DNA of 44,997 bases from a virus. The stretch is taken from positions 1-44,997 of IMG/VR virus record IMGVR_UViG_3300043446_002076; one strand, 5' to 3'. Made by a program: the position numbers and the translations under genes. Below the pieces are notes generated by a model. It was not told the DNA's origin. It did not search any database and saw only the letters and a list, made by a program, of their open reading frames with translations. Positions 4,742 to 44,412 of the stretch are shown in pieces (position 1 is the first letter of the stretch; each line of letters opens with the position of its first letter).

Positions 4742-4893
4742 GGTGGTGTGTGGTGGTGCCGGCCGGAGCGCTCAGGCTCGACGGCGGGCGGGAATGGTTT
4801 GCGGGCCTTGCACCCGCTCGGTCTCGTCTCGGTAACCCGGTCGTTTGACTGTTCCCGGGGTGGGCTCCTCGTGGCTTGCGCCGGGGTGCTCAC
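4738..4893 (-). CDS. Small leader-proximal hypothetical protein
   Basis: A 51-residue frame starting at GTG, immediately downstream of promoter module P2 (predicted leader of only about 12 nt) and overlapping the next gene by ATGA. It has a GCKARKPFPPAVEPE core and a His/Pro-rich tail. The overlap and position support translation; the low-complexity tail weakens the case. Confidence 0.45.
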   Translation of the reverse strand: MSTPAQATRSPPREQSNDRVTETRPSGCKARKPFPPAVEPERSGRHHHTPP

Positions 4894-16882: not shown

Positions 16883-18230
16883 TCCGCTCGCAGCCGCCAG
16901 GGCGCAGCTGCAGCTCGCTCGCTTTGGTGGCCCGCAGCTGCAGGACTCCGACCGCCTGCTGCACACCATCACCGCCGACCTGCACCCCGGGCAGGCTGCC
17001 TTTGTTCACGATCAGGCCACCGAGATCATCGGCGTCTCCGCCGGCTATGGCGCCGGCAAGACCCGGGCACTCTGCGCCAAGGCCGTCAGCCTCGCGCTGG
17101 CCAATCAGGGCTTCCTGGGCTGCGTCATGGAGCCCACAGGGCCGCTGATCCGCGACATCTGGCAGAACGACTTCGAGGCCTTCCTGGAGGGCTACGACAT
17201 TCCTTACAGCTTTCGCGCCTCGCCGCTGCCGGAGTACGTGCTGCACCTGCCTGGTGGTGACACAAAGATCCTGTGCCGGTCGTTCGAGAACTGGACACGC
17301 ATCATCGGCCTGAACTTGGCATGGGTGCTGGCTGACGAGATTGACACCGTGACGCCAACGATCGCCAACAAGGCATTCCCGAAGATCCTCGGTCGCCTCC
17401 GCTCCGGCAACGTCCGCCAGTTCGGCGCCGCCAGCACCCCGGAGGGCTTCCGCTGGATGTGGCAGACCTTCGGCTCAGACGATGCGCAGCAGCGCCAGGA
17501 CCGCCGGCTGATCCGCATGCGCACGGCGGACAACCCACACCTCCCGCCGGACTTCATCGAACGCCTTCAGGCCAACTACGACCCCTCCCTGCTGCGGGCC
17601 TACCTGGAGGGTGAGTTCGTCAACCTGACCACCGGCCAGGTCTACGACCGCTTCAACCGCGAGCATCACGTGGTGCCCTGCGACTGGGATGAGCTGGAGG
17701 GCGAGACGATCCTGCTCGGCGTGGACTTCAACGTGGGCAACATGAGCGGCGTCGTGGCCGTCCGCCGTGGCCGGGAGCTGCATGTCTTCGACGAGATCAG
17801 CGGCGCCCACGACACCGACGCCCTGGGCCAGGAACTGCGCCGCCGCTACCCCAAGGCCCGCATCCTCGGCTACCCCGACGCCTCCGGCACCGCCCGCAGC
17901 ACCAACAGCAGCCGCAGTGACGTGGCCATCCTGCAGGCCTACGACATCAGCAACATGGCTCCCAAGGCCAACCCACCGGTGCGCGATCGGGTGGCCGCCG
18001 TGCAGGCCCTGCTGGAGAACGGCACCGGTGAACGCCGGCTGTTCATCGACCCGCGCTGTAAGCGGCTGATCGAGTGCCTGGAGCTGCAGAGCTACGCCGA
18101 GGACGGCACGCCAGCCAAGGACACCGGCTACGACCACATGAACGACGCCCTCGGCTACATCGTGCACCGCACCTTCGAGGTCGGCCGCGCCATCACCGGG
18201 AAAGCAGTGCGTGGGGTGCGCCTCTACTAG
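16863..18230 (+). CDS. terL: Terminase large subunit
   Basis: A 455-residue packaging motor. The ATPase has Walker A GYGAGKT at 61-67 and Walker B WVLADEID near 154-161. The RNase-H-like nuclease has GVDFNVGNM at 286-294, PDASG near 342 and a C-terminal DHMNDALGY. These are the expected catalytic acidic residues. The start is a TTG inside the end of the small subunit gene, which implies translational coupling. The length is normal for phage terminases. Confidence 0.95.
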   Translation: MALLLADPLAAARAQLQLARFGGPQLQDSDRLLHTITADLHPGQAAFVHDQATEIIGVSAGYGAGKTRALCAKAVSLALANQGFLGCVMEPTGPLIRDIWQNDFEAFLEGYDIPYSFRASPLPEYVLHLPGGDTKILCRSFENWTRIIGLNLAWVLADEIDTVTPTIANKAFPKILGRLRSGNVRQFGAASTPEGFRWMWQTFGSDDAQQRQDRRLIRMRTADNPHLPPDFIERLQANYDPSLLRAYLEGEFVNLTTGQVYDRFNREHHVVPCDWDELEGETILLGVDFNVGNMSGVVAVRRGRELHVFDEISGAHDTDALGQELRRRYPKARILGYPDASGTARSTNSSRSDVAILQAYDISNMAPKANPPVRDRVAAVQALLENGTGERRLFIDPRCKRLIECLELQSYAEDGTPAKDTGYDHMNDALGYIVHRTFEVGRAITGKAVRGVRLY

Positions 18231-18259
18231 CGGCAACCTACCGGACAAGTAGGCATGCC

Positions 18260-19801
18260 ATGCAACCCGGCGAAACGCTGATCACAGCCGGCAACGGAGA
18301 CACCCGTTACGCACGCTTCCAGCCGGTAACGATGGGCGGCGCTGGTGGTGGCGCCAACTTCCGCAGCCTCAAGGTCTACGAACCCGGCATCAGCTGGAGT
18401 CAGCAGGAGCCACGCTGGCGGTTGATTGAGCAGCTGTGCCTGGGCACCCTGGGCATGCAGCAGGCCGGCCGCAGTTACCTGCCCCAGGAGCCTGCTGAAA
18501 GCCCGGAGTCCTACGAGGTCCGCCTGCGCCGCAGCATCTGCCCCCCGTACTACCTGCGCCTGGAGCAGATGCTGGCGGGCATGCTCACCCGCAAGCCAAT
18601 CCGGCTCGACAACGTGCCCGATCCCATGGTCGAGCAGCTGTACGACGTGGATCTGACCGGCAGCGGGCTTGATGTGTTCCTGCAGCACCTGGCCCGCCTG
18701 TGCATCCGTTACGGGCACGTGGGCGTGCTGGTGGACTTCCCCAGGGGCGATGAGGGCGACGACAGCCCCGTGACGGACTTCAGCAGGCCCTACTGGCTGC
18801 CGTACAGCCCCCGCGACATCCTGGGCTGGCGTACCGACGTGGTAGGCGGCACGCAGAAGCTCACGATGCTCCGCCTGCGCGAGACTCTGACCGTCCCCTA
18901 TGGCGAGTGGGGTGAGGAGATGGTCGAGCAGGTGCGGGTGCTGGAGCCCGGCCGGTTCCGCCTGTATCGCAAGCAGGCATCACGCAGCCGCGACTGGGAG
19001 CTCATCTCGGAGGGCACCACCACCATGGAGGACATCCCGTTCGCCGTCGCCTATGCCAACCGCTCCGCCACCCTGGAGAGCACCCCGCCGCTCGAGGAGG
19101 TCGCGTGGTTGAACCTGCTCGCCTATCAGTGCGAAAGCGACCAGGGGAACCTGCTGCACGTCGCCGCAGTGCCCCGGTACAACCTGTTCGGAGTGCCGGC
19201 AGAGGTGGAGGAGATCGATGCAGGGCCCAACAGCGCCACGGCATTCCCGTCTGATGCCCGCGCTGAGTTTGCGGAGCCCACCGGCACCAGCTACGAGGCC
19301 CGCTTCAAGCAGCTGGACCGCATCCGCGACCAGATCGCGGAGCTGGGCCTGGCGGCGGTGCTGGGGCAGAACATGACGAACCAAGCGGCGGAGGCGAAGG
19401 CCATCGATCGGTCGCAGGGTGACGCGGCATTGCAAGCCGTCGCCATCGGCCTGCAGGATCTCGTCGATCAATGCCTGACGTTCCACGCTGCCTACATGGG
19501 CCTGCCGGATGGTGGCAGCAGTGCCGTCAACCGGGACTTCGTGTCAGCACGGCTGGAGGCCGGTGACGTGCAGCAACTGATCCAGCTGCGGCTCAACAAT
19601 GAGATCAGCCAGGAGACCCTGCTTACTCGCCTGGCCGAGGGTGAATGGCTCGGGTCTGACTTTGACATCGATGCCGAGCTGGAGCAGACCATGCAGGCGA
19701 AGGCCGAGGGCCTGCAGGCGCAGCAGGATCAGCTACAGGCCGCCATGGGACAGCTGCCAGGGCAATCGCAACCGGATGGGCAACCTACGCCGCAACCCTG
19801 A
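18260..19801 (+). CDS. Portal protein (DUF4055-like)
   Basis: A 513-residue protein. It contains YEVRLRRSICPPYYLRLEQM, LCIRYGHVGVLVDFPRGD and YLLAYQCESDQGNLLH-like segments typical of DUF4055 portal proteins, and a Gln-rich coiled-coil tail. It forms the dodecameric ring at the capsid vertex through which DNA passes. The ATG at 18260 is 28 nt after the start of a GGCAACCTA motif (18232), and no Shine-Dalgarno sequence is visible. The gene directly follows terminase, as usual. Confidence 0.88.
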   Translation: MQPGETLITAGNGDTRYARFQPVTMGGAGGGANFRSLKVYEPGISWSQQEPRWRLIEQLCLGTLGMQQAGRSYLPQEPAESPESYEVRLRRSICPPYYLRLEQMLAGMLTRKPIRLDNVPDPMVEQLYDVDLTGSGLDVFLQHLARLCIRYGHVGVLVDFPRGDEGDDSPVTDFSRPYWLPYSPRDILGWRTDVVGGTQKLTMLRLRETLTVPYGEWGEEMVEQVRVLEPGRFRLYRKQASRSRDWELISEGTTTMEDIPFAVAYANRSATLESTPPLEEVAWLNLLAYQCESDQGNLLHVAAVPRYNLFGVPAEVEEIDAGPNSATAFPSDARAEFAEPTGTSYEARFKQLDRIRDQIAELGLAAVLGQNMTNQAAEAKAIDRSQGDAALQAVAIGLQDLVDQCLTFHAAYMGLPDGGSSAVNRDFVSARLEAGDVQQLIQLRLNNEISQETLLTRLAEGEWLGSDFDIDAELEQTMQAKAEGLQAQQDQLQAAMGQLPGQSQPDGQPTPQP

Positions 19802-22754: not shown

Positions 22755-23771
22755 GTGGAGCCGGATCTCTCGTTGCAGGTCGAGCAGTTCCTCAGGAATG
22801 CCCTGCGGCAGCGGAAGCTGGAGGACCGGCTGGTGCGGCAGGCGCTGCGGGATCTGCGGCTGACGCTGGCCGGCATCGAGCGGGTGGTGGGCGGCTCTGG
22901 TGTGCTGGTGGTGGGCCCTGCGCGGGAGGAGAACATCCGCCGGCTGGTGGAGGCCATCAAGGAGAGCGTCAAGGAGAGCTTCAGCGGCCCGCAGCTGACG
23001 GCGCTGCAGGAGGCGCTGACGCCGTTTGTGGAGCAGCAGCTGGACTTCGCCCGGCAGATGGTGCAGCGAGCTGGTGGCAGCCTCACGGCCGAGGGTGCGG
23101 TGCAGCTGACGCCCTTGCAGGCCTCACGGCTGGTGAATCAGCAGGTGGTGGCGGGCAAGACCCTCGAGGCGCAGCTCACCGCGACCCTGCCGGCTGCGGT
23201 GGCGGATCGGGTGGAACGCTTTATCCGGCTGGGCCTGAGCGACGTGGGCGGCGAGACGTTCGCCACCTATCAGGACGCCGTGGTCAGGGTGACGGAGAAC
23301 AACGTCGAGGCGATCATCCGCACCGCGACGCATGAAGCCGGCAGCGCTGCACAGCAGCTGATCTACCAGTTTGAGACGGATCCGGATTGGATAGGGCCTG
23401 AGGGTTTGGTCTGGACTGCAATCTTTGATAGTCGGACCTGCCCAGTCTGTCTGAAGCTGGACGGCAAGCGGTTCCCGACTGATTACCAGAAGGTCTCGCC
23501 CCACGCACAGTGCAGATGCATGCTCCTCCCGTGGAAGTGGCGCAATGAGGATATGGCCACGCCACAGGGAGTGGTTCCGCGCACGAGGCCTGCTAAGGGT
23601 GACGATGGCCGCGAGGAGCTGAGCGTAAAGACAGCAGCCAAGACCTGGGTCAAGGACAACCCAGAAACGGCACAGGCCATTTTCGGCAAGAAGCTGGGGC
23701 AGGATCTGATCGACGGCAAGGTGAGCTTCGATCAGGCCGTTAAGCGGTGGCAGGCACCCAAGGCAACCTGA
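22755..23771 (+). CDS. Minor head protein, Mu gpF-like
   Basis: A 338-residue protein. Residues 170-260 carry the gpF-like/SPP1 gp7-like signature: TATHEAGSAAQQLIYQFE, then VWTAIFDSRTCPVCLKLDG and SPHAQCRCMLLPW, with paired Cys that probably bind zinc. The N-terminus is a long helix. Such proteins are minor capsid components near the portal, some taking part in DNA ejection. The GTG start lies within a TGAGGTGGAG that also includes the upstream stop. Confidence 0.85.
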   Translation: MEPDLSLQVEQFLRNALRQRKLEDRLVRQALRDLRLTLAGIERVVGGSGVLVVGPAREENIRRLVEAIKESVKESFSGPQLTALQEALTPFVEQQLDFARQMVQRAGGSLTAEGAVQLTPLQASRLVNQQVVAGKTLEAQLTATLPAAVADRVERFIRLGLSDVGGETFATYQDAVVRVTENNVEAIIRTATHEAGSAAQQLIYQFETDPDWIGPEGLVWTAIFDSRTCPVCLKLDGKRFPTDYQKVSPHAQCRCMLLPWKWRNEDMATPQGVVPRTRPAKGDDGREELSVKTAAKTWVKDNPETAQAIFGKKLGQDLIDGKVSFDQAVKRWQAPKAT

Positions 23772-23774
23772 GGC

Positions 23775-24329
23775 ATGACCGTCACCATCACCGCTACCGC
23801 CGGCTCCAGCAGCGCCAACAGCTACCTGACGGTGGCGGCAGCTGATGCGCTGGCCAACGACTACCTCGGCACACTGGCCTGGTCATCGGCCACCACCGAC
23901 AACAAAGGCCGGGCGCTGATCATGTCAACCCGCTATCTGGATCAGCTCAGCTGGGTCGGCACCCGGGCGTCAACGACGCAGGCGCTGGCCTGGCCCCGCA
24001 CCGATGCCGAATGCGGTGAGTGGAGCTTTACCGCTGCTGAGATCCCGGATCCGATCAAGGCGGCCACCTTTGATCTGGCCGAGGCCCTGCTCACGACACC
24101 GACGCTGCTGAGCACCACAGGCCCGGGCAATGCGGAGCTCATCCCCGGGATCCCCAATGCCTCGCTCAAGAGCGCGCGGGTGGATGTGATCGCGGTGGAC
24201 TTCAAGGATGGCGCGGTGCCCAGCAGTCGCAATGCGCTGAACGTGGTCCCGAGCCTGCGGCAGACGCTCGGCTGCTTATGCACGTCGGTTCCGGTGGGGA
24301 CCGGTAACGTAAGGGTCGTCCGCAGCTGA
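23775..24329 (+). CDS. Head-tail connector (DnaT-like family)
   Basis: A 184-residue protein with the pattern of structural proteins often labelled DnaT-like: SSANSYLTVAAADALANDYL, ALIMSTRYLDQLSWVG, LAWPRTD and PIKAATFDLAEALL. In phage gene order this family sits where adaptor proteins of the neck are expected, so a connector role is more likely than DNA replication. A GGCAACCTG motif starts exactly 13 nt before the ATG and spans the upstream stop. Confidence 0.7.
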   Translation: MTVTITATAGSSSANSYLTVAAADALANDYLGTLAWSSATTDNKGRALIMSTRYLDQLSWVGTRASTTQALAWPRTDAECGEWSFTAAEIPDPIKAATFDLAEALLTTPTLLSTTGPGNAELIPGIPNASLKSARVDVIAVDFKDGAVPSSRNALNVVPSLRQTLGCLCTSVPVGTGNVRVVRS

Positions 24330-24333
24330 TGCC

Positions 24334-24882
24334 GTGCCTGCTCTCCAGCTGCTGCTGTTTGGAGAGCCTGAGGCCGCCAAGCCAAAGCCGCACCTGGCGG
24401 ACCCGCTGAGCCGGGAAGAACGGCGCAGGTTTGGGAAGATGTATGCGGCCAACATCGGCCTGGTGCGTAAGTTCGCCCACCGGCTGAGCCAGCAATACGG
24501 GCACTGCCTGGCGCGGGAAGACATCAACAGCTGCTGCGACTTCGCGTTCCTGAAGGCGTGCCGGGCCTGGGATCCCGAGCGCGGGAAGCTCAGCACCATC
24601 TACTGGCGGTTCGCGCAGGGCGAGGTGCTCCACTACCTGCGGTCGCACAACTGGGCCATTGGTGCCACGCACCGCGCACGGGAGCTGGGCCTGCGGGCGC
24701 GCAAGCTGCTGGACGTGGGCTGGGCAGCGGAAGCGGTCTGCCAGGAGCTGTCGATCAGCGCCGATGACCTGCGGGACTGCCTGGTGGCCACCAGCGGCAT
24801 GGCACACGACACCATGGGCTTCGACCTGCATGTGTGCCCACGGATGACGCCGATGGAGGTGCTGGAGGCCTCGGAAACCTAG
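24334..24882 (+). CDS. Sigma-70-like RNA polymerase sigma factor
   Basis: A 182-residue protein. Residues 38-107 follow sigma region 2: NIGLVRKFAHRL, then REDINSCCDFAFLKACRAWD, PERGKLSTIYWRFAQGEVL and HYLRSHNW, in the order of core-binding and -10-recognition helices. Residues 122-152 could form a sigma-4-like helix-turn-helix (LLDVGWAAEAVCQELSI). It is shorter than primary sigma factors and lies unusually inside the structural operon, between the connector and tail-tube genes. A GTG start at 24334 is used. It could direct host polymerase to phage late promoters. Confidence 0.8.
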   Translation: MPALQLLLFGEPEAAKPKPHLADPLSREERRRFGKMYAANIGLVRKFAHRLSQQYGHCLAREDINSCCDFAFLKACRAWDPERGKLSTIYWRFAQGEVLHYLRSHNWAIGATHRARELGLRARKLLDVGWAAEAVCQELSISADDLRDCLVATSGMAHDTMGFDLHVCPRMTPMEVLEASET

Positions 24883-25651: not shown

Positions 25652-26146
25652 CTAGAGGGCATTCCTGGACAGCTTCCGCCACTCGGCGATGAAGAAGCTG
25701 TCCAGCGGGTGCTTGTCGAGGGCTGGTTTGATCCAGTTCCTCGGCGGCACCACTGTGCCTCTGGGGCCGACGACGTAGCCGGTCAGGATCAGGCCGGCAT
25801 ACATGAATCCCTTGTCGCTTTTGGCGTCCCAGGTGAAGGTGAGCTGATACTTACCATTATCAGCTGCGTATTCCTTGCGCTGCGACTTGAGCAGGCCACC
25901 AAGATCCACGATGTTTCGTGGGGTTCTCACCTTTTGACCATTGCGGCGATACGTGATTCTCGGCTTTCCTTCTCTTGGGTGGCCTGCTGGCCAAGTAGCA
26001 GGCCACTGGTAGTTGACGGCCTGAATCTCCTCTTTCAGCTGCTTGTCCATCACGGTGCCGTATTCCTCAAGGATGAAGCCGGCACGTTCCGCGAGCAGCT
26101 TGCTGTTCCAGCCCTTGAGTTCCAGCGTCGCCTTGATCTCAGCCAC
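25652..26146 (-). CDS. Tail completion/neck protein candidate, reverse strand
   Basis: A 164-residue protein (AEIKATLELKGWNSKLL) containing PREGKPRITYRRNGQKVRT, VDLGGLLKSQRKEY, LILTGYVVGPRGTVVPPRNW and WRKLSRNAL. The helix-plus-sheet layout with VVPPRNWIKPAL fits HK97 gp10-type neck or tail-completion proteins. The GTG start overlaps the upstream stop in a GTGGCTGA junction. It is on the minus strand, opposite all its structural neighbours. Confidence 0.6.
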   Translation of the reverse strand: MAEIKATLELKGWNSKLLAERAGFILEEYGTVMDKQLKEEIQAVNYQWPATWPAGHPREGKPRITYRRNGQKVRTPRNIVDLGGLLKSQRKEYAADNGKYQLTFTWDAKSDKGFMYAGLILTGYVVGPRGTVVPPRNWIKPALDKHPLDSFFIAEWRKLSRNAL

Positions 26147-26543
26147 GCTGCACGTACCTCGCCAGGCGGATCTGATCGCCTAGGACGTCCTGCAGCGTTT
26201 TGCCAATCAAGCCAGCGCTTCCGTAGTCAAAGCGAGCCACCAACACCTCACACGGCAGCGGATCTTCATCGCCGAAGGTGAGCATCCCTGTGATACCTGG
26301 CTTGATGCGTGCATCTAGCGCCTGCGGCTCGACGGCATAGCCCTGGTACGTCTCGTCGCCAACCACCACGCCGGGCAGCTGGCGGACGTTCTCAAGGAAG
26401 CCGAAACGCCGCAGGTACAAGGTGACGCTGACCTCCTCAGTGACCGGCAACACGTTCCCGGTGTCGGCATCGGTGGTGACGCCAACGGTCGGCAGGGTGA
26501 ACACTGCAGTGGCGTTGGCCAGTGCGGCAAGGGCTGATGTCAT
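26139..26543 (-). CDS. Head-closure/connector candidate, reverse strand
   Basis: A 134-residue beta-rich protein (VFTLPTVGVTTDADTGNVL, then VSVTLYLRRFGFLENVRQL and PGITGMLTFGDED) that looks like a head-closure (stopper) or neck component. It is transcribed on the minus strand with the gene at 25652-26146. Its ATG lies exactly 13 nt after the start of a GGAAACCTA motif, which forms an inverted pair with the motif before the tape-measure gene. Function by position only. Confidence 0.55.
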   Translation of the reverse strand: MTSALAALANATAVFTLPTVGVTTDADTGNVLPVTEEVSVTLYLRRFGFLENVRQLPGVVVGDETYQGYAVEPQALDARIKPGITGMLTFGDEDPLPCEVLVARFDYGSAGLIGKTLQDVLGDQIRLARYVQRG

Positions 26544-26585
26544 GCCCTAGGTTTCCCGGCAACCTAGGCCACTGAGGATGTAGCA

Positions 26586-29066
26586 GTGGCAGAACAGCTG
26601 GGCGAAGCCAGACTCAAGCTGTCGGTGGATGACACGGCGCTGAATGCTGGGCTGCAGCGGGCGCAGCAGCAGGCCGGCCGTACTGGCCAGACGATCAATC
26701 AAGCCTTCACCGGCAGCACCCGGAGCATCGCCGGCCTGGAGGCCAGGCTCGAAAGCCTTAGAGGTAAGTTCAAAGCTGCCGAGATTGGCAGCAAAGAGTT
26801 TCGCAAGCTGCAGGCTGAAATCCGCAAGACTGAACAAGAACTGAGCAAAGTTGATCAAACACTAGGCAGCACGTTTAAGCAGCGGGCTGGTGGGTTTGGC
26901 GGCGGACTGCTCGGCGCTCTTGGCGTAGGCGCTGGCATTGGCGCCGGCGCTGCTGTCGGTGGCTTTATCAAGAGCAGCATTGATCAGGCCGTCGAACTGG
27001 AGAACATCACCCGCAAGCTCAGCAACACGCTGGGCCAGCAGGGTGCCGGCGCTGCGCTCAACTTCACCAGCGGCCTGGCCAAGGATCTGGGCCTGAACTT
27101 CAAGGAGTTATCCAATGCGTTTGCCAGTTTCACCGCAGCAGCAACAGCAGCCAACGTCCCACTCGAAACACAGAAGGACCTGTTTGCGGCAGTGTCCAAG
27201 GCCGGGCAAGCCCTGGGCCTGAGCAACGACGAGATCAACGGGTCGCTCTTGGCACTGCAGCAGGTGGCATCCAAGGGCACCGTCTCAATGGAAGAACTGC
27301 GCGGCCAGCTGGGAGAGCGATTGCCGATCGCGCTGTCAGCAGCCGCCAAGGGACTGGGGTTAAATCAGCAACAACTAATCAAGCTGGTTGAATCTGGCAA
27401 GCTGACCGCTGATCAGTTTTTCCCAGCACTTACCAAAGGCCTTAATGATCTGACGGCTGGGGCTGAAGGGCTAGAAACAACAGCTCAAAAGTTCCAGAAG
27501 TTTCAGAACGCATGGCAGGATCTGCAGACCAGCTTTGGCACCAACCTACTGCCTGGCATCACTGCTACCGTCGGTGAACTGACCAAGGCAATTGAAGGAC
27601 TTGGAGTTGCGTCAGAAGCCAAGCGACTCGGCTTCTCTACTGGATTCTTGAATGGAGTATCCACTCAAGGCGCTCAGGCCGTTGGTGCATTGCGAGCAGC
27701 GCAAAGGCAGTTTAACTTAAACGATGCACAAGCTAAGACTGTATTTGATCAAGCACTAGAGGCATCTGGTGCCGGTCGTGGCGCGCTTACCTTTGGCTTT
27801 AATGATAAGGAATACCTGGTATTGCTTGATCAGATTCTGGTCAAGGCCAAGGAACTCAGGGCGGCAAATCCTGACAAGCAGGCAGCATTGCAGGCCGCTG
27901 CAGCGGCAGATCAAAAGCTAAAGCAGGCTCAAGCGGCCGCCGAACAAGTTCGGGCTAAGCAGCTCGATTCCGACTTGACGCAAGGCAAATCAAACCTTGA
28001 ACTGCAGAACATCCTTGATCGGATTGCAGCCACCAAGGAACTGCTGCAGTTGGATGATGCCGGTAGAGCCAAGATAGAAAATCGCTTGGCATTGACCGAA
28101 AAGCTTAGGGCAACCGAAGCTCTGCGGCTGGATTTGGCCCGTGAGCAGGACAAGCCCAAAGGCACCGGTGATGGGCAGAACGGCACGCAAAGTCTTGCGA
28201 AAGTAGCCGAACTGCAAAACCAGATCAAGCGCAGCGAAGCCGAAACCGCACTGCTCAGGGTGCAGCAGGAACAGGCAGAAGCTCAGTCACTTCGCACCCA
28301 GCAAGAGAAAGTCCGTCAATCTCGACTAGATGCAGTTAATGCAGCGGATAAGCTGAAGGTCACTCAGCAGCTCACTGCCCTAGAGCTTCGGACGCCAGCA
28401 AATCAGCAGGTTTCGGCTACGGCCAAGCTGCAGCTCCAGCAGCAGCTGGAGATCACTCAGAAGCTCAGGCAAGAGGAGGCCGCACGTGCAGCGCTGGCGA
28501 CTGAGCTGGCCAGGCCCAAGGGCCAGCAGGATCGAGTGGTGGTCGGTGAACTGCAGGACCGGGTCCGCAAGGCCAACCAGGACGTGGTACAGGCCTATGC
28601 CGATGCCGGGCTGTCCCTGGTGCAGAACGCCAAGACTGCTGCCGAAGCCCTCAAAGATGCAAACAAATCGCTGGATAGCTTCAAGCGTTCCAACTTTGAG
28701 GTTCTGACTTTTGAGGAGCAGCAACAGCAACTCGAACAAGCACGGCAAGAACTGCAGATTGGTGTTGATAAGGGCTACATCCGTGAGGGACTGCCTATCG
28801 GCACGCCTGAGCAGATCTTCCGACTGGCTGGTATTGCCAATCAACGGGAAGAGCTTGAAGTCAGAAAGCAACAAGCGACAATAGAAAAAACGCTGGCAGA
28901 TAATGCCCTAGAGCTTGGCGTGAAGGTTGATCAGTTCATAGGAGAACTTCAGCCCTTGCGAGATGTGATCTCCGCTAACGCTTCAGCAACTCAGGCGCTG
29001 GCCGAAAAGGACTGGCTTGTCAATGTTTCCGTCAACGGCGCCCCTGCACCCGCACCCGTCCTATGA
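26586..29066 (+). CDS. Tape measure protein
   Basis: An 826-residue protein that sets tail length. Residues 1-100 are coiled coil (LEARLESLRGKFKAAEIGSK), followed by a Gly/Ala-rich membrane-like stretch (GGGLLGALGVGAGIGAGAA, residues 100-120), the tape-measure core (MEELRGQLGERLPIALSAA, LKLVESGKLTADQFFPAL-like at 255-280), and long Gln/Lys-rich helices to residue 800. The GTG start is 28 nt after a GGCAACCTAGG motif. The length implies a tail of roughly 120 nm by the usual 0.15 nm per residue rule. Confidence 0.9.
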   Translation: MAEQLGEARLKLSVDDTALNAGLQRAQQQAGRTGQTINQAFTGSTRSIAGLEARLESLRGKFKAAEIGSKEFRKLQAEIRKTEQELSKVDQTLGSTFKQRAGGFGGGLLGALGVGAGIGAGAAVGGFIKSSIDQAVELENITRKLSNTLGQQGAGAALNFTSGLAKDLGLNFKELSNAFASFTAAATAANVPLETQKDLFAAVSKAGQALGLSNDEINGSLLALQQVASKGTVSMEELRGQLGERLPIALSAAAKGLGLNQQQLIKLVESGKLTADQFFPALTKGLNDLTAGAEGLETTAQKFQKFQNAWQDLQTSFGTNLLPGITATVGELTKAIEGLGVASEAKRLGFSTGFLNGVSTQGAQAVGALRAAQRQFNLNDAQAKTVFDQALEASGAGRGALTFGFNDKEYLVLLDQILVKAKELRAANPDKQAALQAAAAADQKLKQAQAAAEQVRAKQLDSDLTQGKSNLELQNILDRIAATKELLQLDDAGRAKIENRLALTEKLRATEALRLDLAREQDKPKGTGDGQNGTQSLAKVAELQNQIKRSEAETALLRVQQEQAEAQSLRTQQEKVRQSRLDAVNAADKLKVTQQLTALELRTPANQQVSATAKLQLQQQLEITQKLRQEEAARAALATELARPKGQQDRVVVGELQDRVRKANQDVVQAYADAGLSLVQNAKTAAEALKDANKSLDSFKRSNFEVLTFEEQQQQLEQARQELQIGVDKGYIREGLPIGTPEQIFRLAGIANQREELEVRKQQATIEKTLADNALELGVKVDQFIGELQPLRDVISANASATQALAEKDWLVNVSVNGAPAPAPVL

Positions 29067-31318
29067 CTGCCACCATCACCCTCGGTAGCTTCAGCTGCAG
29101 CAGCCTCACCGCTCAGCCCTATGCCTACGACGGCGATGCACGCTTCGGCCTGACCGCACGTGCCTTCAGGATCAGTGGTCTGCTCACTCCTGCCCAGTGG
29201 TCGGCGTTGCTCGGGGAATACAACACCTGGCGGGGCAATCGGCTCAACGATGAGGACACACTCGCATCCGAAGCGGTCGGCACCACCATCAGCCTGTCGA
29301 TCAACAGTGCCAACGGCATCAGCGTCACTGGCCTTGCCTGTTGGTTCTCAGAAGCGCCCAGCGGTGATCAGGTCGGTGCCTACATCTCCGCAACGGCCAC
29401 ACTGATCGACGCTGCTCAGGCCGTCGCTGCAATCGTTCGGGAACGGACCCGCAAGGATGAGCAGGCCGTCGCTGATGCCGGTCGTGTCAGCTGCGAAGTC
29501 ATTGCCGCCAACCTGCAGCGGCAGAAGGATGAGGCCGATTGCGAGATCGCGGCACTACAGGACGGCCTGGCTGATGACCTTGCCGCGCAGGCCGTCACCC
29601 GAGAGCTGATCGACAAGACTGCCGACCTTGCCGCACGCACCGGCAATCAGAGCGACATCGCTGCGCTGGATGTTGACCTGCAGCTGCTCCAGCAACAGGC
29701 TGAGCTTGATGCGCTCAGTGGCGGGAACGCTGACTCGCTGGCCGAGATCGCGGTGGCCAAAGAGAAGCTCGAGGCCCAAGCGGCACTGGATGCACGGGCT
29801 CCTGAGGCCGAAAACCTGGCCACTATTGAGGTGGCTAGAGAGAAGCAGGGCAAGACTGCTCAGCTCGCCGCACGTGCCACTGAGGCTGACGACATTGCCA
29901 CGCTGGATCTTGATCTGCAGGTTCAGTCGCAGCAGGCGGAACTCAACGCCCTCATCGCTGGTGGTGCCGATGACCTCGCTGCTATCGAGGTCTCCAAAGA
30001 GAAGATCACCAAGACCGCGCAGCTGGCCGCGCGTGCCCCTGAAGCCGAAGACATCGCAGCTCTCGACCAGAGCCTGCAGATCCAGCAGCAACAAGCTGAA
30101 CTGGCGGGGCTCACTGCCGGCAGCGCCGACACCTTGGCCGAGCTGGCAGTGTCACGCGAAAAGCTCGAGGCACAGGCCCGGCTGGATGCTCGCGCACCTG
30201 AAGCCGAGAACCTGGCCACGATTGACGTGGCAGCTGAGATTCAGTCGAAGACAGCAGATCTTGCCGCCAGAGCAACCACTCAGGCAGACATCGCCGCGCT
30301 GGACGCTGACCTGCAGATCCTCCAGCAGCAGAGCGAGCTGGATGCTCTCACGGCCGGTGCTGCCGACACCTTGGCTGAAATCGCCGTCGCGCGCGAGAAG
30401 CTGGATGCACAGGCCAGCCTCGACGCCCGCGCACCAGAGGCGGAGAACCTGGCGGCAATCACTGTCGCCCGGGAGCTGCAAGACAAGACGGCGCAGCTTG
30501 CGGCACGTGCCCCTGAAGCTGAGAGCATTGCCGCACTTGACCTGGATCTGCAGATCCAGTCGCAGCAGGCCGAGCTGGATGCGCTGAGCGCTGGACCGGC
30601 CGACACGCTGGCGGAGATTGCGATTGCCAGGGAAAAGCTGGATGCACAGGCCAGTCTGGATGCCAGGACGCCTGAAGCCGAGAACCTCGCCGCTATTCAG
30701 GTGGCGCTGGAGAAGCTGAACAAGCAGGCCAACCTGGACGCCAGAGCCGCTGAAGCCGAAGACCTGGCGCTGCTCGACCTCCAGCAGCAGCTGCAGGACA
30801 CCGAGGCCCAGCTGGCGGCCTATGGCGGCACGGAAGCGGAAGATCTGGCCGGCGCCACGCTGGACCTGGAGATGGCCAGGACTGCCGCTGATCTGGCAGC
30901 CAAGGCAACCAGGCTCGACGACCTGCGGGAATCCCGGTCGCTGCAATCGCTCTACGACCGGTACATCTCCGAAGATCTGCCGGACCTCGGCACCATCACC
31001 CTGGGCAGCTGCACCATCAAGCTGACAAAGCCGGCTGATACCAGAGTCGATGGCCCGAATGTGCAGTTGACGGCTGGTGGGGCAAGTTACATCACGGGTG
31101 CCAAGGCATCGCACACGTCGCGGCAGATCGAAGGGATCATCTCATCAGGCACCTATGCGAGTCTGCTGACCTGGTTTGATAACACTGTTTCCAGCAGCCC
31201 AGCAGCAGGGACGTGGTTCCCAATCAGCTCGCCATCAGCTACTGCTGAACCGTTCCTGATCAGTGGTGTCAAGGCAACCCGCTACAGCGTGTCCCTGCAG
31301 GTGGTGCAAATCAGATGA
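29063..31318 (+). CDS. Tail protein with large repeat insertion between two beta domains
   Basis: A 751-residue protein. Residues 1-120 (ITLGSFSCSSLTAQPYAYDG, then AFRISGLLTPAQWSALLGEY) and residues 640-751 (TITLGSCTIKLTKPADTRV, then IEGIISSGTYASLLTWFDNT) look like two copies of one beta domain, possibly a Dit-like distal-tail module. Between them lies a helical region (about 120-620) containing some 16 tandem 26-27-residue repeats. The gene overlaps the tape measure by ATGA and the next gene likewise, where Dit proteins normally lie. It may form an extended tail-tip structure. Confidence 0.7.
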   Translation: MTATITLGSFSCSSLTAQPYAYDGDARFGLTARAFRISGLLTPAQWSALLGEYNTWRGNRLNDEDTLASEAVGTTISLSINSANGISVTGLACWFSEAPSGDQVGAYISATATLIDAAQAVAAIVRERTRKDEQAVADAGRVSCEVIAANLQRQKDEADCEIAALQDGLADDLAAQAVTRELIDKTADLAARTGNQSDIAALDVDLQLLQQQAELDALSGGNADSLAEIAVAKEKLEAQAALDARAPEAENLATIEVAREKQGKTAQLAARATEADDIATLDLDLQVQSQQAELNALIAGGADDLAAIEVSKEKITKTAQLAARAPEAEDIAALDQSLQIQQQQAELAGLTAGSADTLAELAVSREKLEAQARLDARAPEAENLATIDVAAEIQSKTADLAARATTQADIAALDADLQILQQQSELDALTAGAADTLAEIAVAREKLDAQASLDARAPEAENLAAITVARELQDKTAQLAARAPEAESIAALDLDLQIQSQQAELDALSAGPADTLAEIAIAREKLDAQASLDARTPEAENLAAIQVALEKLNKQANLDARAAEAEDLALLDLQQQLQDTEAQLAAYGGTEAEDLAGATLDLEMARTAADLAAKATRLDDLRESRSLQSLYDRYISEDLPDLGTITLGSCTIKLTKPADTRVDGPNVQLTAGGASYITGAKASHTSRQIEGIISSGTYASLLTWFDNTVSSSPAAGTWFPISSPSATAEPFLISGVKATRYSVSLQVVQIR
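29590..30925 (+). repeat. Tandem coding repeats (26-27 codons, 79-codon super-repeat)
   Basis: The DNA encodes three unit types in order: A (ADTLAEIAVAREKLDAQASL...), B (AENLAAITVARELQDKTAQL...) and C (AESIAALDLDLQIQSQQAEL...), of 26, 26 and 27 residues. The order is roughly C, ABC, BC, ABC, ABC, AB, giving a 79-residue (237-bp) higher-order repeat. Hydrophobic spacing indicates a continuous helix or coiled coil. Confidence 0.85.
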
Positions 31319-36687: not shown

Positions 36688-37226
36688 GGGCGGTGGTGCT
36701 GGCAGCGTATGAGGAGCTGCAGCAGATCCAGCGGCAGCAGGCCAGCATTGCGGAGCTGCCGGTGGCGCAGCTGACGGCGTTGATGGCGAACGTGAACCGC
36801 GACCCGGCCAAGTCGCAGGCCTTCGCCACCGAACAGTTCTGCTTCTTTCGCGAGCAAGACCAAACCGCCGAGGGTCTCAGCCCTGAGGTCGCTGCCGTAG
36901 CACTGGCCCTGCGGCACGAGGACCGGTGCCCACCGCTGCTGCTGACGATCTGGCCCGACATCCTCAAGGCTGCCAAGACCACGGCCCAGCCACCAGCGGT
37001 GCGGGCGCTGCGCAGCGACGACGATGCCGTCTGGGTGCTGGCGCCGCAGTGGGAAGGCCGAAACGTGCGCGGCGGCTTGGTGGCAGTGCGCGGCCAGCTG
37101 AGCGGGCGGATCGTACTGCGCGAGCTCGATCGGCCGCTGATACGGCACGCGGTACGGCTGCCGCAGCGGAAGGGGTTTGGATGGCTGGAGGCCGACCTGT
37201 TGCTGGCCGGGGAACCTACGCCATGA
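36576..37226 (+). CDS. GT-like extension reached by -1 frameshift
   Basis: The -1 frame runs from the slippery site: QWKRQTTDWAGIFWRLCHAY, then PGQFHRSTFGQELRAVVLAAYEEL and LPVAQLTALMANVNRDP, i.e. T-domain-like helices, continuing to LLLAGEPTP. Expressed as a fusion with the first 175 codons of the gene at 36052 it gives 391 residues. A GTG at 36693 could also start a separate 177-residue protein, so the region beyond about 36850 may be an independent gene. In lambda the T part recruits the tape measure and tail-tube protein. Confidence 0.6.
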   Translation, partial: AAAGQWKRQTTDWAGIFWRLCHAYPGQFHRSTFGQELRAVVLAAYEELQQIQRQQASIAELPVAQLTALMANVNRDPAKSQAFATEQFCFFREQDQTAEGLSPEVAAVALALRHEDRCPPLLLTIWPDILKAAKTTAQPPAVRALRSDDDAVWVLAPQWEGRNVRGGLVAVRGQLSGRIVLRELDRPLIRHAVRLPQRKGFGWLEADLLLAGEPTP

Positions 37227-40378: not shown

Positions 40379-40414
40379 GGCGGAAACCTAGGGCAGCAGC
40401 ATCGCCCCGGCTCC

Positions 40415-41291: not shown

Positions 41292-42362
41292 GTGGCGGAC
41301 ATCCGGCTGGTGGACGTGGCCAAGAGCTTCCGCAGCCTCAGCCATCAGATCGCGGCATTGAACTGGCTGAACGAGCAGCTGGCCAAGCAGCCGGACACCC
41401 TGCGTGAGTTTGCGGAGCTCTGGCGGGCAGATCCGCCGATCAAGCCCGAGGCCAGCCCCACACCCGGCGTGGACTGGCTCACGCCATGCCTGGCCATCGT
41501 CAAGGAGTTCGAGGGCTGCAAGCTCAAGGCATACCCAGACCCCGGCACCGGCGGCGAGCCGTGGACAATCGGATGGGGCAGCACTGGCCCCGGCATCGGT
41601 CCCACCACCATCTGGACGCAGCAGCAGGCCGATGAGCGGCTGCTGGTGGACCTGCAGCAGTTCCACCGCAGCATGCTGGTGGTGCTGCCAATGGCCTGGG
41701 AGTGGAGCGGCAACCGCCAGGCAGCACTGACGAGCTTCGCCTACAACGTCGGCATCGGCGCCCTGCAGGAATCCACGCTGCGGCAACGGCTGATCCGTGG
41801 CGAGGATCCAGCGCTGGTGGTGCGGGAAGAGTTGCCGCGCTGGAACAAGGGTGGCGGCGGCGTGCTGCCGGGACTGGTGCGGCGGCGTGCTGCGGAGGTG
41901 GCGCTGTTCGTCGGCAAGCAGCAGCAGGAACAGCAGCCCGGCAGGGTGCGGCCGGGTGATCCGTTCAGCACCAGGCTCAGTGCCCACTTCACGCTCGGTG
42001 AGTTCGCCCTGGGCCAGGAAGCGCGGCGGTTCATCGCGCAGCATCAAGTCGACACGGCAGCCGAGCTGGCGGCATTCCTTGAGCGGGTGCGGGTGGCGTT
42101 CGGCAACAAGCCGATCGTGATCACGTCCGGGTATAGACCGCCGGCCATCAACCGCAGCGTTGGTGGTGCCAGCCAGTCAGAGCACCTCTACGACGCGCCA
42201 AATGTTGGCGCGGTGGACTTCTACGTGCAGGGCGCGGACATCAAGGCCGTCCAGGACTGGTGCGACCGCGAGTGGCTCTACAGCATCGGCTACGGGGCGC
42301 CGAAGGGGTTTGTGCACCTGGGCATCAGGCAGGACCGGCCGCGTGTCCGGTGGGTGTATTGA
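41292..42362 (+). CDS. Two-domain lysin: GH24 lysozyme plus M15 peptidase
   Basis: A 356-residue lysin. Residues 1-58 are an uncharacterised helical head. Residues 66-215 are a T4-type lysozyme with catalytic E74 in KEFEGCKLKAYPDPG (D83) and WTIGWGSTG. Residues 230-356 are an M15_3-type peptidase: HFTLGEFALG, VITSGYRPPAINRSVGG, then SEHLYDAPNVGAVDFYV and FVHLGI, giving His, Asp and His zinc ligands. The enzyme should cut both glycan and peptide bonds of peptidoglycan. No signal peptide is seen, so holin release is expected. The GTG start at 41292 is 28 nt after a GGGAACCTA motif. Confidence 0.85.
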   Translation: MADIRLVDVAKSFRSLSHQIAALNWLNEQLAKQPDTLREFAELWRADPPIKPEASPTPGVDWLTPCLAIVKEFEGCKLKAYPDPGTGGEPWTIGWGSTGPGIGPTTIWTQQQADERLLVDLQQFHRSMLVVLPMAWEWSGNRQAALTSFAYNVGIGALQESTLRQRLIRGEDPALVVREELPRWNKGGGGVLPGLVRRRAAEVALFVGKQQQEQQPGRVRPGDPFSTRLSAHFTLGEFALGQEARRFIAQHQVDTAAELAAFLERVRVAFGNKPIVITSGYRPPAINRSVGGASQSEHLYDAPNVGAVDFYVQGADIKAVQDWCDREWLYSIGYGAPKGFVHLGIRQDRPRVRWVY

Positions 42363-42875
42363 TCAGCCCTTGCTGGCCTGCACGGTGGTGTCGCCGCAGT
42401 ACCGGCCGGTCTCGCGGTAGTCGCGCTCCGGCGTGGAAGCCATCCGATGCAGCACCATCTGCCCGATGCGCATGCCCGGCCACAGGGCGATCGGGTGCAG
42501 CTGGCGGGAGTTGTGGAGCTCCAGCGTCAGCACCGAACCGGACCAGCCTGGATCGCAGTAGCCAGCCATCAGGTGCTCGAGGCCCTCGCGGGCGCGGCTG
42601 GACTTCAGCATGAACTGCGCCGCAACCGTTGGCGGCAAGTGGAACATCTCCACCGTCTGAGCCAGGCAGAACTGCCCCGGCGCCAGCCAGTACGGGTTTT
42701 CCTGCGTGTGGCCCTCCAGCGGGTACGGCAGCAGCTCACGCGACTGAGCCGACTCGATTAGCAGGGTGGACCCCAGTCGCACGTCAAGGCTGGCCGGGTT
42801 CACCATGTCGGGGTCATACGGGTTCACCATGCCCTGCTGACAGAGGGCATGGATCTGGTGGTCGGGAAGGATCAC
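42363..42875 (-). CDS. dcd: dCTP deaminase
   Basis: A 170-residue trimeric dCTP deaminase/dUTPase-fold enzyme. SLDVRLG is at residues 29-35. LKSSRAREGLEHLMAGYCDPGWSG contains the Ser and Arg of the active site, and LTLELHN supplies the catalytic Glu. The C-terminal YCGDTTVQASKG closes over the nucleotide. It makes dUMP/dUTP precursors for thymidine synthesis or limits dCTP. It is slightly shorter than E. coli Dcd (193). It is convergent with the lysin gene, with no space between the stop codons. Confidence 0.9.
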   Translation of the reverse strand: MILPDHQIHALCQQGMVNPYDPDMVNPASLDVRLGSTLLIESAQSRELLPYPLEGHTQENPYWLAPGQFCLAQTVEMFHLPPTVAAQFMLKSSRAREGLEHLMAGYCDPGWSGSVLTLELHNSRQLHPIALWPGMRIGQMVLHRMASTPERDYRETGRYCGDTTVQASKG

Positions 42876-42880
42876 AGGGT

Positions 42881-43093
42881 TCAGACGCCGGGTTCGTCCA
42901 CCTCGGACGGACCGCGCTCAGGCACCAGCGGTCCGCCACGAGGCAGCTCGATCCCATGGGCGCGGCACAGGGCCTCAAACGCAGCCTTGGCACGCTTGCC
43001 AGAGCACTCTTCCACGCACAAGCCACCACCACAGACGCGCCACCGCAGCTGGTCACCACGGACCACCACTTCCCAGGTCGGTAGGTCGATCAT
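42881..43093 (-). CDS. Small hypothetical protein
   Basis: A 70-residue protein (MIDLPTWEVVVRGDQLRW) with VCGGGLCVEECSGKRAKAAF (three Cys) and ALCRAHGIELPRGGP. The ATG at 43093 lies 13 nt after a GGAAACCTA motif, and the dcd gene follows on the same strand. It may be a zinc-binding regulator or a nucleotide-metabolism partner. Function unknown. Confidence 0.6.
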   Translation of the reverse strand: MIDLPTWEVVVRGDQLRWRVCGGGLCVEECSGKRAKAAFEALCRAHGIELPRGGPLVPERGPSEVDEPGV

Positions 43094-43386: not shown

Positions 43387-44412
43387 ATGGCGTCCGTCAA
43401 CGTCCACAGGGGCAGGCTGTACCTGCTCGCAAAGGTGCCATGCCGTGACGGCACACCAGGCCTCAAGCAGCAACGGATCGCCCTGCGGATGGACGACACA
43501 CCGGTCAACCGCCGGGCGGCAGCAAAGCAGCTGCAGACACTCGAGCGGCAGCTGGCGGATGGGGCGTTCAGCTGGGCCTACTGGCTGGATGAGGAGCAGG
43601 GCCTCACGTGGCGGGAAGCCATCAGCCGGCTGCATCGGGCCCGGGTGACGCTCGGTCGCACGTCAGAGACGACATGGGAGATCAACTACATGGGCCGGCT
43701 ACGGCAGATCCCGCCGACCAGCCGCTGCACACCCGAGAGCATGGCTGCTGCCCTGCAGCGCTACGACCGGGGCAGCTGCAGCTACAAAGAGCTGTACTAC
43801 CTGCTCAAGCACCTGGCCAAGCTGGTAGCGGTGCCGTTCCCGGAGGTGCCGCTGCCGACGTACCGCGAGGCTGCGGCAGTGGCGGTGCCGACCGATGACG
43901 AGATCATCGCGTGGGTCGAGGGCGCTGGGGCTGCCAGCTGGTACTTCGGAATGATGGCCACCTACGGACTGCGGCCCCATGAGATCGAGGGTGCCGTGCT
44001 GGTGGACCGCGATTACTGCCAGGTGGCGGATGCCACGAAGACAGGATTCCGCACGGTGGTGCCGGTGCCGCGTGAGTGGGTTGAGCGGTTCCAGCTGCGG
44101 GACCGCCGACTGCGGCAGGTGATGCCGGGGCGTGGTGGGCAGGACCGGCCAGATGCGGTGGCGAAGTGGCTGAGCTGGCAATGCAAGGGGCTTCCGTGGC
44201 GGCCCTATGCACTGCGGCATGCCTATGCAGGGCGGCTGTGGCGCACGGGCGGCAGCCGACTGGACATCTACACCGCTGCGCGACTCATGGGACACACGGC
44301 AGCGCAACATGCGCGGACGTACCGGGCGCACATTCAGCCGCACCTGGTGGCGGAAGCTGCGGAGCGGGCGCTGCTGGGAGACCCGGCACCACCGCTGCCA
44401 GATTCACCCTGA
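43387..44412 (+). CDS. int: Tyrosine integrase
   Basis: A 341-residue phage integrase. The catalytic domain (about 165-325) has R196 in TYGLRPHEI, K218 in the beta hairpin, R277 in PYALRHAYAGRL (with Tyr in place of the usual first His), H303 in MGHTAAQHA and nucleophile Y312 in RTYRAH. The N-terminal part (1-160) provides arm and core binding. It integrates and excises the phage DNA by site-specific recombination. The 3' end overlaps the excisionase-like gene on the other strand by 128 bp. Confidence 0.9.
   Translation: MASVNVHRGRLYLLAKVPCRDGTPGLKQQRIALRMDDTPVNRRAAAKQLQTLERQLADGAFSWAYWLDEEQGLTWREAISRLHRARVTLGRTSETTWEINYMGRLRQIPPTSRCTPESMAAALQRYDRGSCSYKELYYLLKHLAKLVAVPFPEVPLPTYREAAAVAVPTDDEIIAWVEGAGAASWYFGMMATYGLRPHEIEGAVLVDRDYCQVADATKTGFRTVVPVPREWVERFQLRDRRLRQVMPGRGGQDRPDAVAKWLSWQCKGLPWRPYALRHAYAGRLWRTGGSRLDIYTAARLMGHTAAQHARTYRAHIQPHLVAEAAERALLGDPAPPLPDSP

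Follow-up and report, generated by a model that had tools for sequence, protein, structure and literature searches.

The gene at positions 24334-24882 of IMG/VR virus record IMGVR_UViG_3300043446_002076 encodes a group-3 (SigF/FliA-like) sigma factor with a domain 2, a domain-3-like part and no region 4. Based on the placement and distribution of a short sequence element, we consider it probable (about 0.77) that this protein is a late sigma factor reading single-element promoters of the form GGnAACCTA followed by NGSC and a purine. Throughout, the window denotes the whole stretch of 44,997 nucleotides analysed here, and related loci and genomes carry our L and G numbers (G000 is the window). 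The gene and its parts are as follows.

24334..24882 (+), sigma gene: GTG start, 182 aa, group-3-like, without region 4 (Pfam, PHROG and NCBIfam profiles, AlphaFold, PDB comparison)
24346..24360 (+), QLLLF, putative beta-clamp-binding motif: residues 5-9; core relatives all keep Q, L and F
24439..24654 (+), sigma domain 2: residues 36-107 (Sigma70_r2 match, 8b3z_D superposition)
24670..24792 (+), domain-3-like helices: residues 113-153 (AlphaFold helices 113-127, 132-139 and 143-153)

The first-pass annotation had proposed a sigma-like gene here on the basis of two peptides, and the proposal holds: the open reading frame and both peptides are present, and the protein matches the Pfam model Sigma70_r2 (E=1.4e-5; 25.3 bits, above the gathering cut-off of 24) and two PHROG sigma families (E=3e-10 and 1e-9). 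The region 2 pattern seen in the peptides is real, with the correction that the first belongs to region 2.1/2.2 and the second to region 2.3/2.4. The SigF, FliA/WhiG and SigB-type models of NCBIfam gave E-values of 2e-8 to 1e-6, the best being the SigF model PRK07408 (E=2e-8), and since all of these scores lie far under the curated cut-offs, the protein is a divergent group-3-like sigma outside those subfamilies. When the Sigma70_r2 model (PF04542) was run against whole contigs in six frames it gave no match, although the protein alone passes the cut-off. Sigma70_r2 was matched by 46 of the 47 family members, and Sigma70_r4 by none of the 47 in the profile search (E 0.1).

An AlphaFold model built from 47 aligned relatives has a mean pLDDT of 77.9 and is reliable only at residues ~21-155; the first 15 residues are disordered. 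Structure prediction against sigma domains had been named as a check, and comparison of the model with the PDB found the match to region 2: domain 2 of 8b3z_D superposes on residues 27-106 with a Z of 9.6 (2.0 A, 77 residues), a value not rare for helical proteins that here agrees with the independent profile evidence. Sigma28 in an open promoter complex (9wsm_F) aligns to residues 30-156 (Z 8.8, 126 residues), where the rmsd of 8.8 A means that domain order is matched and domain orientation is not. For region 3, the predicted helices occupy the expected domain-3 place and the FliA profile alignment extends to residue 155; there is no Sigma70_r3 match, and two-domain superpositions have an rmsd near 9 A. 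The protein ends ~29 residues past the last of these helices. Region 2 of a group 3 sigma-70 factor is present by profile and by fold, and region 4 is absent. Non-sigma chains also matched the fold, among them ParB (1zx4, residues 114-155, Z 7.2) and ArsC (3t38); they were discounted as helical arrangements of a common kind, and the best E-value of a PDB sequence search, a repeat protein found via short helix likeness, was disregarded. T4 gp55 is absent among the fold matches listed, which excludes nothing.

The nearest annotated relatives are the sigma genes of the cyano-siphoviruses S-CRES3, S-CBS2 and P-SS2 (26-34% identity). IMG/VR holds close relatives at 65-96% identity and many at 25-35%, and a search with the major capsid protein added family members at 42-64%. 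We distinguish clade a (the window and relatives at 42-96%), clade b (L025, L032, L037, L050 and L052), clade c (L019-L024), clade d (L041, L044, L055, L073 and L075) and clade e (the S-CBS2, S-CRES3 and P-SS2 type). The view that sigma genes are rare in siphoviruses fails for cyano-siphoviruses: they are annotated in S-CRES3, S-CBS2, P-SS2 and KBS-S-2A, and relatives of the window sigma are encoded on 101 IMG/VR stretches. Its reported position between connector and tail tube was borne out, with Ad1 upstream (phrog_477, E=7e-31) and the major tail protein downstream (phrog_3884, E=2.5e-6), and this arrangement recurs in 12 of the 12 relatives spanning the site (loci from the capsid-protein search that reach Ad1). 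In S-CBS2 (NC_015463.1, ~57431-57560) the annotated rpoS ends early, and an LQGSLF tail of the S-CRES3 type continues in another frame; the early end is a frameshift either in the phage or in the record.

The N-terminus of the window sigma (MPALQLLLFGEP) carries the putative clamp-binding motif QLLLF within a segment of pLDDT <50, recognised by motif match; the bacterial clamp-binding consensus is QL(S/D)LF (PMC9690074). Core members of clade a keep Q5, L8 and F9 without exception, with varying neighbours (QLLLF, QMDLF, QLSLF, QLALF), and more distant members have QLNLF, QLTLL and QLSFL. The longer clade e proteins end in Q[GAP][SVN]LF as their last five residues (QGSLF, QPSLF, QASLF), and in clades b and c there are members with Q[LM][GA]L[LI] placed two to four residues before the C-terminus. 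In the family comparison the motif is absent from P-SS2, clade d and the shorter clade e proteins, so any clamp coupling would belong to some clades only and not to the family as a whole. A phage-encoded beta clamp (PF02767) was found only in S-H1 among 13 records, and none was found in the window. The terminal QLxLF suggests, by analogy, a gp55-like coupling of late transcription to replication, and we give docking of the sigma on the clamp through this motif a roughly even chance. The motif might instead be an RNA polymerase core contact or an unrelated hydrophobic patch with no replication coupling, a reading that concerns the clamp step only and to which we assign a substantial chance, though below even. 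It would suit the family members that have no motif, the lack of a clamp gene in the window and the unstructured N-terminal 15 residues; it accounts less well for invariant Q, L and F among varying neighbours and for an equivalent motif at the very C-terminus of another clade, and the clamp motif of T4 gp55 also sits on a disordered tail (PMC7892883).

The annotation had cited a recurring element, GGNAACCTA, at 18232, 26558 and 41264; it is present at all three, and there are seven further copies in the window. The total of 10 compares with 0.30 expected, and none of 100 shuffles reached 10. In the window scan there were 0 copies in the left arm, that is, before position 18232, and every copy precedes a right-arm gene by a short distance, on the coding strand of that gene; relatives carry the element at the same places. 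A logo of 43 non-orthologous sites from eight genomes has a C before the 9-mer and nGsC plus a purine after it, then a pyrimidine, and in these 43 sites there is no conservation upstream of the 9-mer, including the -35 region. A scoring matrix trained without the window sites found 11 window sites above 12 bits, against a mean of 1.0 in random sequence, and all 11 lie on the coding strand directly before a gene. A single conserved element without a -35 box stands before the late genes. The predicted sites are listed below.

18232..18245 (+), predicted late promoter before the portal gene (ATG 18260): GGCAACCTACCGGA, 17.9 bits
19779..19792 (+), predicted late promoter before the scaffold gene 19814 (scaffold by phrog_206): GGCAACCTACGCCG, 18.8 bits
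22194..22207 (+), weak predicted promoter before gene 22228: GGCAAGCTACGAGC, 10.6 bits, near noise level, leader 21 nt
23762..23775 (+), predicted leaderless promoter before Ad1 (23775), with the sigma gene further downstream: GGCAACCTGAGGCA, 14.3 bits
24873..24886 (+), predicted late promoter before the tail tube gene 24903, overlapping the sigma gene end: GGAAACCTAGGGCA, 22.6 bits
26543..26556 (-), predicted leaderless promoter of the minus-strand island 25652-26543: GGAAACCTAGGGCA, +1 at the A of ATG, conserved
26558..26571 (+), predicted late promoter before the tape measure gene 26586: GGCAACCTAGGCCA, 22.2 bits
34189..34202 (+), predicted late promoter before gene 34219: GGAAACCTAGGTCA, 18.0 bits
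36022..36035 (+), weak predicted promoter before gene 36052: GGCAACTTAGCCCG, 11.9 bits, near noise level
37210..37223 (+), predicted leaderless promoter of gene 37223: GGGAACCTACGCCA, 18.7 bits, conserved in G003 and G005
40382..40395 (+), predicted late promoter before gene 40415: GGAAACCTAGGGCA, 20.5 bits
41264..41277 (+), predicted late promoter before the lysozyme gene (probable start GTG 41292): GGGAACCTACCGGA, 13.3 bits
43093..43106 (-), predicted leaderless promoter of the minus-strand island 42363-43093: GGAAACCTATCTCA, 17.0 bits, orthologous in G003, G005 and G009

The Ad1 site reads GGCAACCTG in the window and GGCAACCTA in relatives L003-L006, and the tail tube site is conserved in L002-L007 and appears in L008 as GGCAACCTA. 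The GTG start of the lysozyme gene fits the relatives and leaves a leader of 15 nt; the gene (41292-42362) encodes a phage lysozyme domain fused with a peptidase M15 domain in one protein. The island at 42363-43093 consists of a small gene and a dCTP deaminase.

The predicted +1 was placed at the conserved purine that lies 13 nt past the first G of the element. Across the sigma-bearing phages, the distance from this position to the start codon is bimodal, being either 0 nt or ~14-24 nt (mode 15-18), and predicted leaders of 1-13 nt are rare, also with each gene start counted once. CA is the commonest -1/+1 dinucleotide at the predicted starts (37 of 91), and words resembling a Shine-Dalgarno sequence are uncommon in the longer leaders (26 of 93). 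Such a gap in leader lengths points to leaderless and short-leader mRNAs and is not expected of an operator or a ribosome-binding signal; it is indirect evidence for promoter nature and for the position of +1.

Transcription of the right arm runs rightward save for two groups, 25652-26543 and 42363-43093; the element has just two minus-strand copies, one at the head of each of these groups. Within 26548-26566 there is one copy on each strand, with 1 bp between them, in the 42-bp gap between head-to-head genes; the back-to-back pair (26543-26571) is kept in relatives, and in L167 the copies abut directly. Occupancy of both predicted promoters by polymerase at once should hardly be possible, and any -35 element of the pair would have to fall inside the opposite gene. 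The genes on either side are a minus-strand connector pair and the tape measure gene, and the two promoters may represent a choice between them.

The distribution of the element across phages links it to the sigma family. Word counting was restricted to sequence before genes, with no motif supplied, as raw whole-locus 8-mer counts were swamped by coding words. GG.AACCT and its parts ranked first or near first in the window and in G022, whose sigma is ~27% identical to that of the window. Among the most enriched words were GGnATACTA in S-CRES3, GGnATACT and GGnATCCTA in S-CBS2 and GGAAAGCTA in P-SS2, and the layout GGnAnnCTA upstream of genes is shared by sigma relatives down to ~27% identity. 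Other words outranked the motif in clade d and G030, and G033 had no clear motif. GGMAWNCTA falls inside genes in 14 of 58 cases in clade a (expected 84%) and in 6 of 57 in clade e (expected 82%), whereas in three sigma-lacking terL relatives 14 of 15 copies lie inside genes, with no avoidance; these statistics use simple-script gene calls, and orthologous sites shared by close relatives enter them repeatedly. Clade b shows a weaker enrichment, and in clade c it is not significant. Of 42 records, 13 contain the 14-nt form GGMAACCTANGSCR, and all 13 belong to clades a-c. The element is absent from the three terL relatives that had no match in the protein search with the window sigma; these three are the only sigma-lacking controls, with differing host and G+C, and a different sigma is annotated in KBS-S-2A.

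A concerted change adds to this. In L159, whose sigma is 54% identical, the orthologous sites have all changed in place to GGCAAACTA or GGCAAGCTA, as against GGCAACCTA, before the portal, scaffold/capsid and tube genes and at the divergent pair (4433, 6928, 11009, 12700(-) and 12707), as is expected if one trans-acting protein reads all of these scattered sites. The link between sigma and element is comparative, resting on co-occurrence and concerted change, and we regard it as well supported. The suggestion that the sigma may recognise late promoters, possibly those marked by GGNAACCTA, therefore gained support from enrichment, placement, strand and co-occurrence.

Other readings of the element have to be weighed. 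The stoperators of mycobacteriophages are short, one-sided sites near gene starts, and GGNAACCTA might likewise be an operator- or stoperator-like repressor site of a probably temperate phage, with the sigma-like protein doing something else. The phage does have an integrase-like gene and a KilA-N protein, but a repressor site would not explain the empty left arm, a conserved flank on the downstream side that ends in a purine, the bimodal start-codon distances, or a motif that tracks the sigma family across other cyano-siphoviruses and is missing in three sigma-lacking relatives; we hold this to be very improbable.

Alternatively, the protein could be a true sigma and the elements be read by another factor, be it a host sigma of group 2/3 or a further phage regulator; shared phage ancestry would then account for the association. 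A second sigma gene, of group-2 type, is present in P-SS2 and S-CBS2 (PMC2784084), and the elements resemble the -12 box of host SigF. However, no second sigma gene was noticed among the window ORFs scanned (part of all ORFs), sigma-lacking relatives with a 66-74% identical terminase do not have the motif, the missing -35 suits a factor without region 4, and the element changes with the sigma clade, so that we give little credence to this reading. A translation-start signal, like the start-associated sequences that some mycobacteriophages have, is the most improbable of the three: the 9-mer does end four bases before the start codon at four window sites, but most copies end ~19-28 nt before it, beyond the ribosome-binding position, predicted leaders of 1-13 nt are rare, and the element sequence varies between sigma clades.

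Returning to a late sigma reading its own promoters, we infer promoter activity, start sites, core binding, clamp docking and late timing from sequence comparison, and the following course of events can be proposed. The late sigma would replace the host sigma on the host core RNA polymerase and direct the holoenzyme to the single -10-like element GGnAACCTA with its conserved NGSC and purine (R) downstream. GGnAAC would be read by domain 2, perhaps also by the domain-3-like part, the strands would open over CTAnGsC, and transcription would start at the purine. Early transcription by host sigma may read through into the structural region and yield the first sigma molecules, after which the predicted promoter before Ad1 would drive the sigma gene downstream in positive feedback. 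Late genes of both strands would come on, and part of their mRNAs would be leaderless: about a third of the strong sites in the window would start at the start codon, and the rest ~15-22 nt before it. Through the terminal QLxLF the sigma may attach to the host beta sliding clamp and so prefer replicating DNA. With neither region 4 nor a -35 box, such a promoter would need only ~14 bp, which fits in the end of an upstream gene and allows back-to-back pairs.

Phage late sigmas that lack region 4 and use single-element promoters are known already from phiEco32 gp36 and T4 gp55. T4 gp55 has a domain 2 homologue, no region 4, a clamp-binding motif on a loose tail and a single-element late promoter (PMC2988020, PMC7892883). 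Like the window sigma, it is a minimal sigma that retains a domain 2 homologue and lacks region 4, and its late promoters, as those predicted here, have no -35 box. The two differ in that the window sigma is SigF-like by profile, carries its clamp-like motif at the N-terminus and has GGnAACCTA in place of the late TATA box; gp55 docks on the gp45 clamp, whereas the candidate clamp here is the host beta clamp, and neither a gp33 nor a clamp of its own, as in T4, was found in the window (annotation of the main ORFs; PF02767). The window sigma would work like gp55 and is placed beside it by likeness of working, not as a member of the gp55 family. In phiEco32, gp36 is a late sigma without region 4 that uses the single element tAATGTAtA and starts transcription 6-8 bp beyond it (PMC8948821); likened by description, both lack region 4 and use a single-element promoter, and the promoter sequences differ. 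SigF has domains r2-r3-r4 (PMC11119718), and in Synechocystis it reads GGTAA at -12 in a core promoter that also has a -32 box, TAGGC (PMC2758279). The -12 box resembles GGnAA of the window element, whereas SigF has region 4 and a -32 box, and the window sigma has no region 4 and its sites no -35 conservation.

The group 3 sigmas of P-SS2 (ORF003), S-CBS2 and S-CRES3 belong to the same family as the window sigma, with identity extending over most of the protein, and have the same domain content and the same promoter layout, GGnAnnCTA. Their gene follows terL, whereas that of the window follows Ad1; positions 5-6 of the element differ; and their C-terminus is longer than that of the window sigma, with a QGSLF end in S-CRES3 and no such motif in P-SS2. 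The P-SS2 paper predicted only sigma-70 promoters and noted the group 3 sigma, supposing a specific regulon and naming no promoter (PMC2784084). Within the open-access literature, with subscription papers outside our scope, we found no description of GGnAnnCTA promoters or of a clamp motif for the P-SS2-type sigma family.

The analysis supplies a predicted target for a phage sigma family known since P-SS2, across many uncultured cyanophages. It may also provide a second late sigma, apparently separate from that of T4, that docks on a clamp, probably the host's own beta clamp; if docking is true, the T4 principle would become testable in a simpler setting. Tentatively, at odds just short of even, we propose that cyano-siphoviruses evolved, independently of T4, replication-coupled late transcription based on a SigF-like sigma without region 4, with a clamp tag on either terminus depending on the clade and 14-bp promoters, some leaderless and some back to back with one firing at a time. 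The sigma/promoter variants GGnAACCTA, GGnATACTA, GGnATCCTA, GGAAAGCTA and GGCAAACTA form a natural series on how domain 2 reads a -10 element, and could serve as orthogonal promoters in cyanobacterial laboratory strains.

The window terminase is 66-74% identical to those of S-H1, KBS-S-2A and MED4-184, phages of Synechococcus and Prochlorococcus, and this likeness makes a picocyanobacterial host likely. Genome contigs scanned with the core sigma alignment yielded no relative and no host or prophage link, and Megablast of the first 25 kb against phage records gave no match. S-H1 (MK105819.1, locus L091) encodes its own beta sliding clamp at 18187-19236 and has neither a window-type sigma nor its promoters. 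An integrase-like gene lies at 43387-44412 (phrog_1, E=2e-11, no Pfam match), and the phage is probably temperate. Downstream (3') of the tape measure gene, a 751-aa protein (29063-31318) has many imperfect repeats of ~40 residues of the AELDAL...ARAPEAENLA type. In the left arm, minus-strand genes have CA-rich leaders of the type CCACCACACC directly before them (2786-2805 and 4742-4760), and words similar to CCACCACACC are enriched before genes in G009 and G022.
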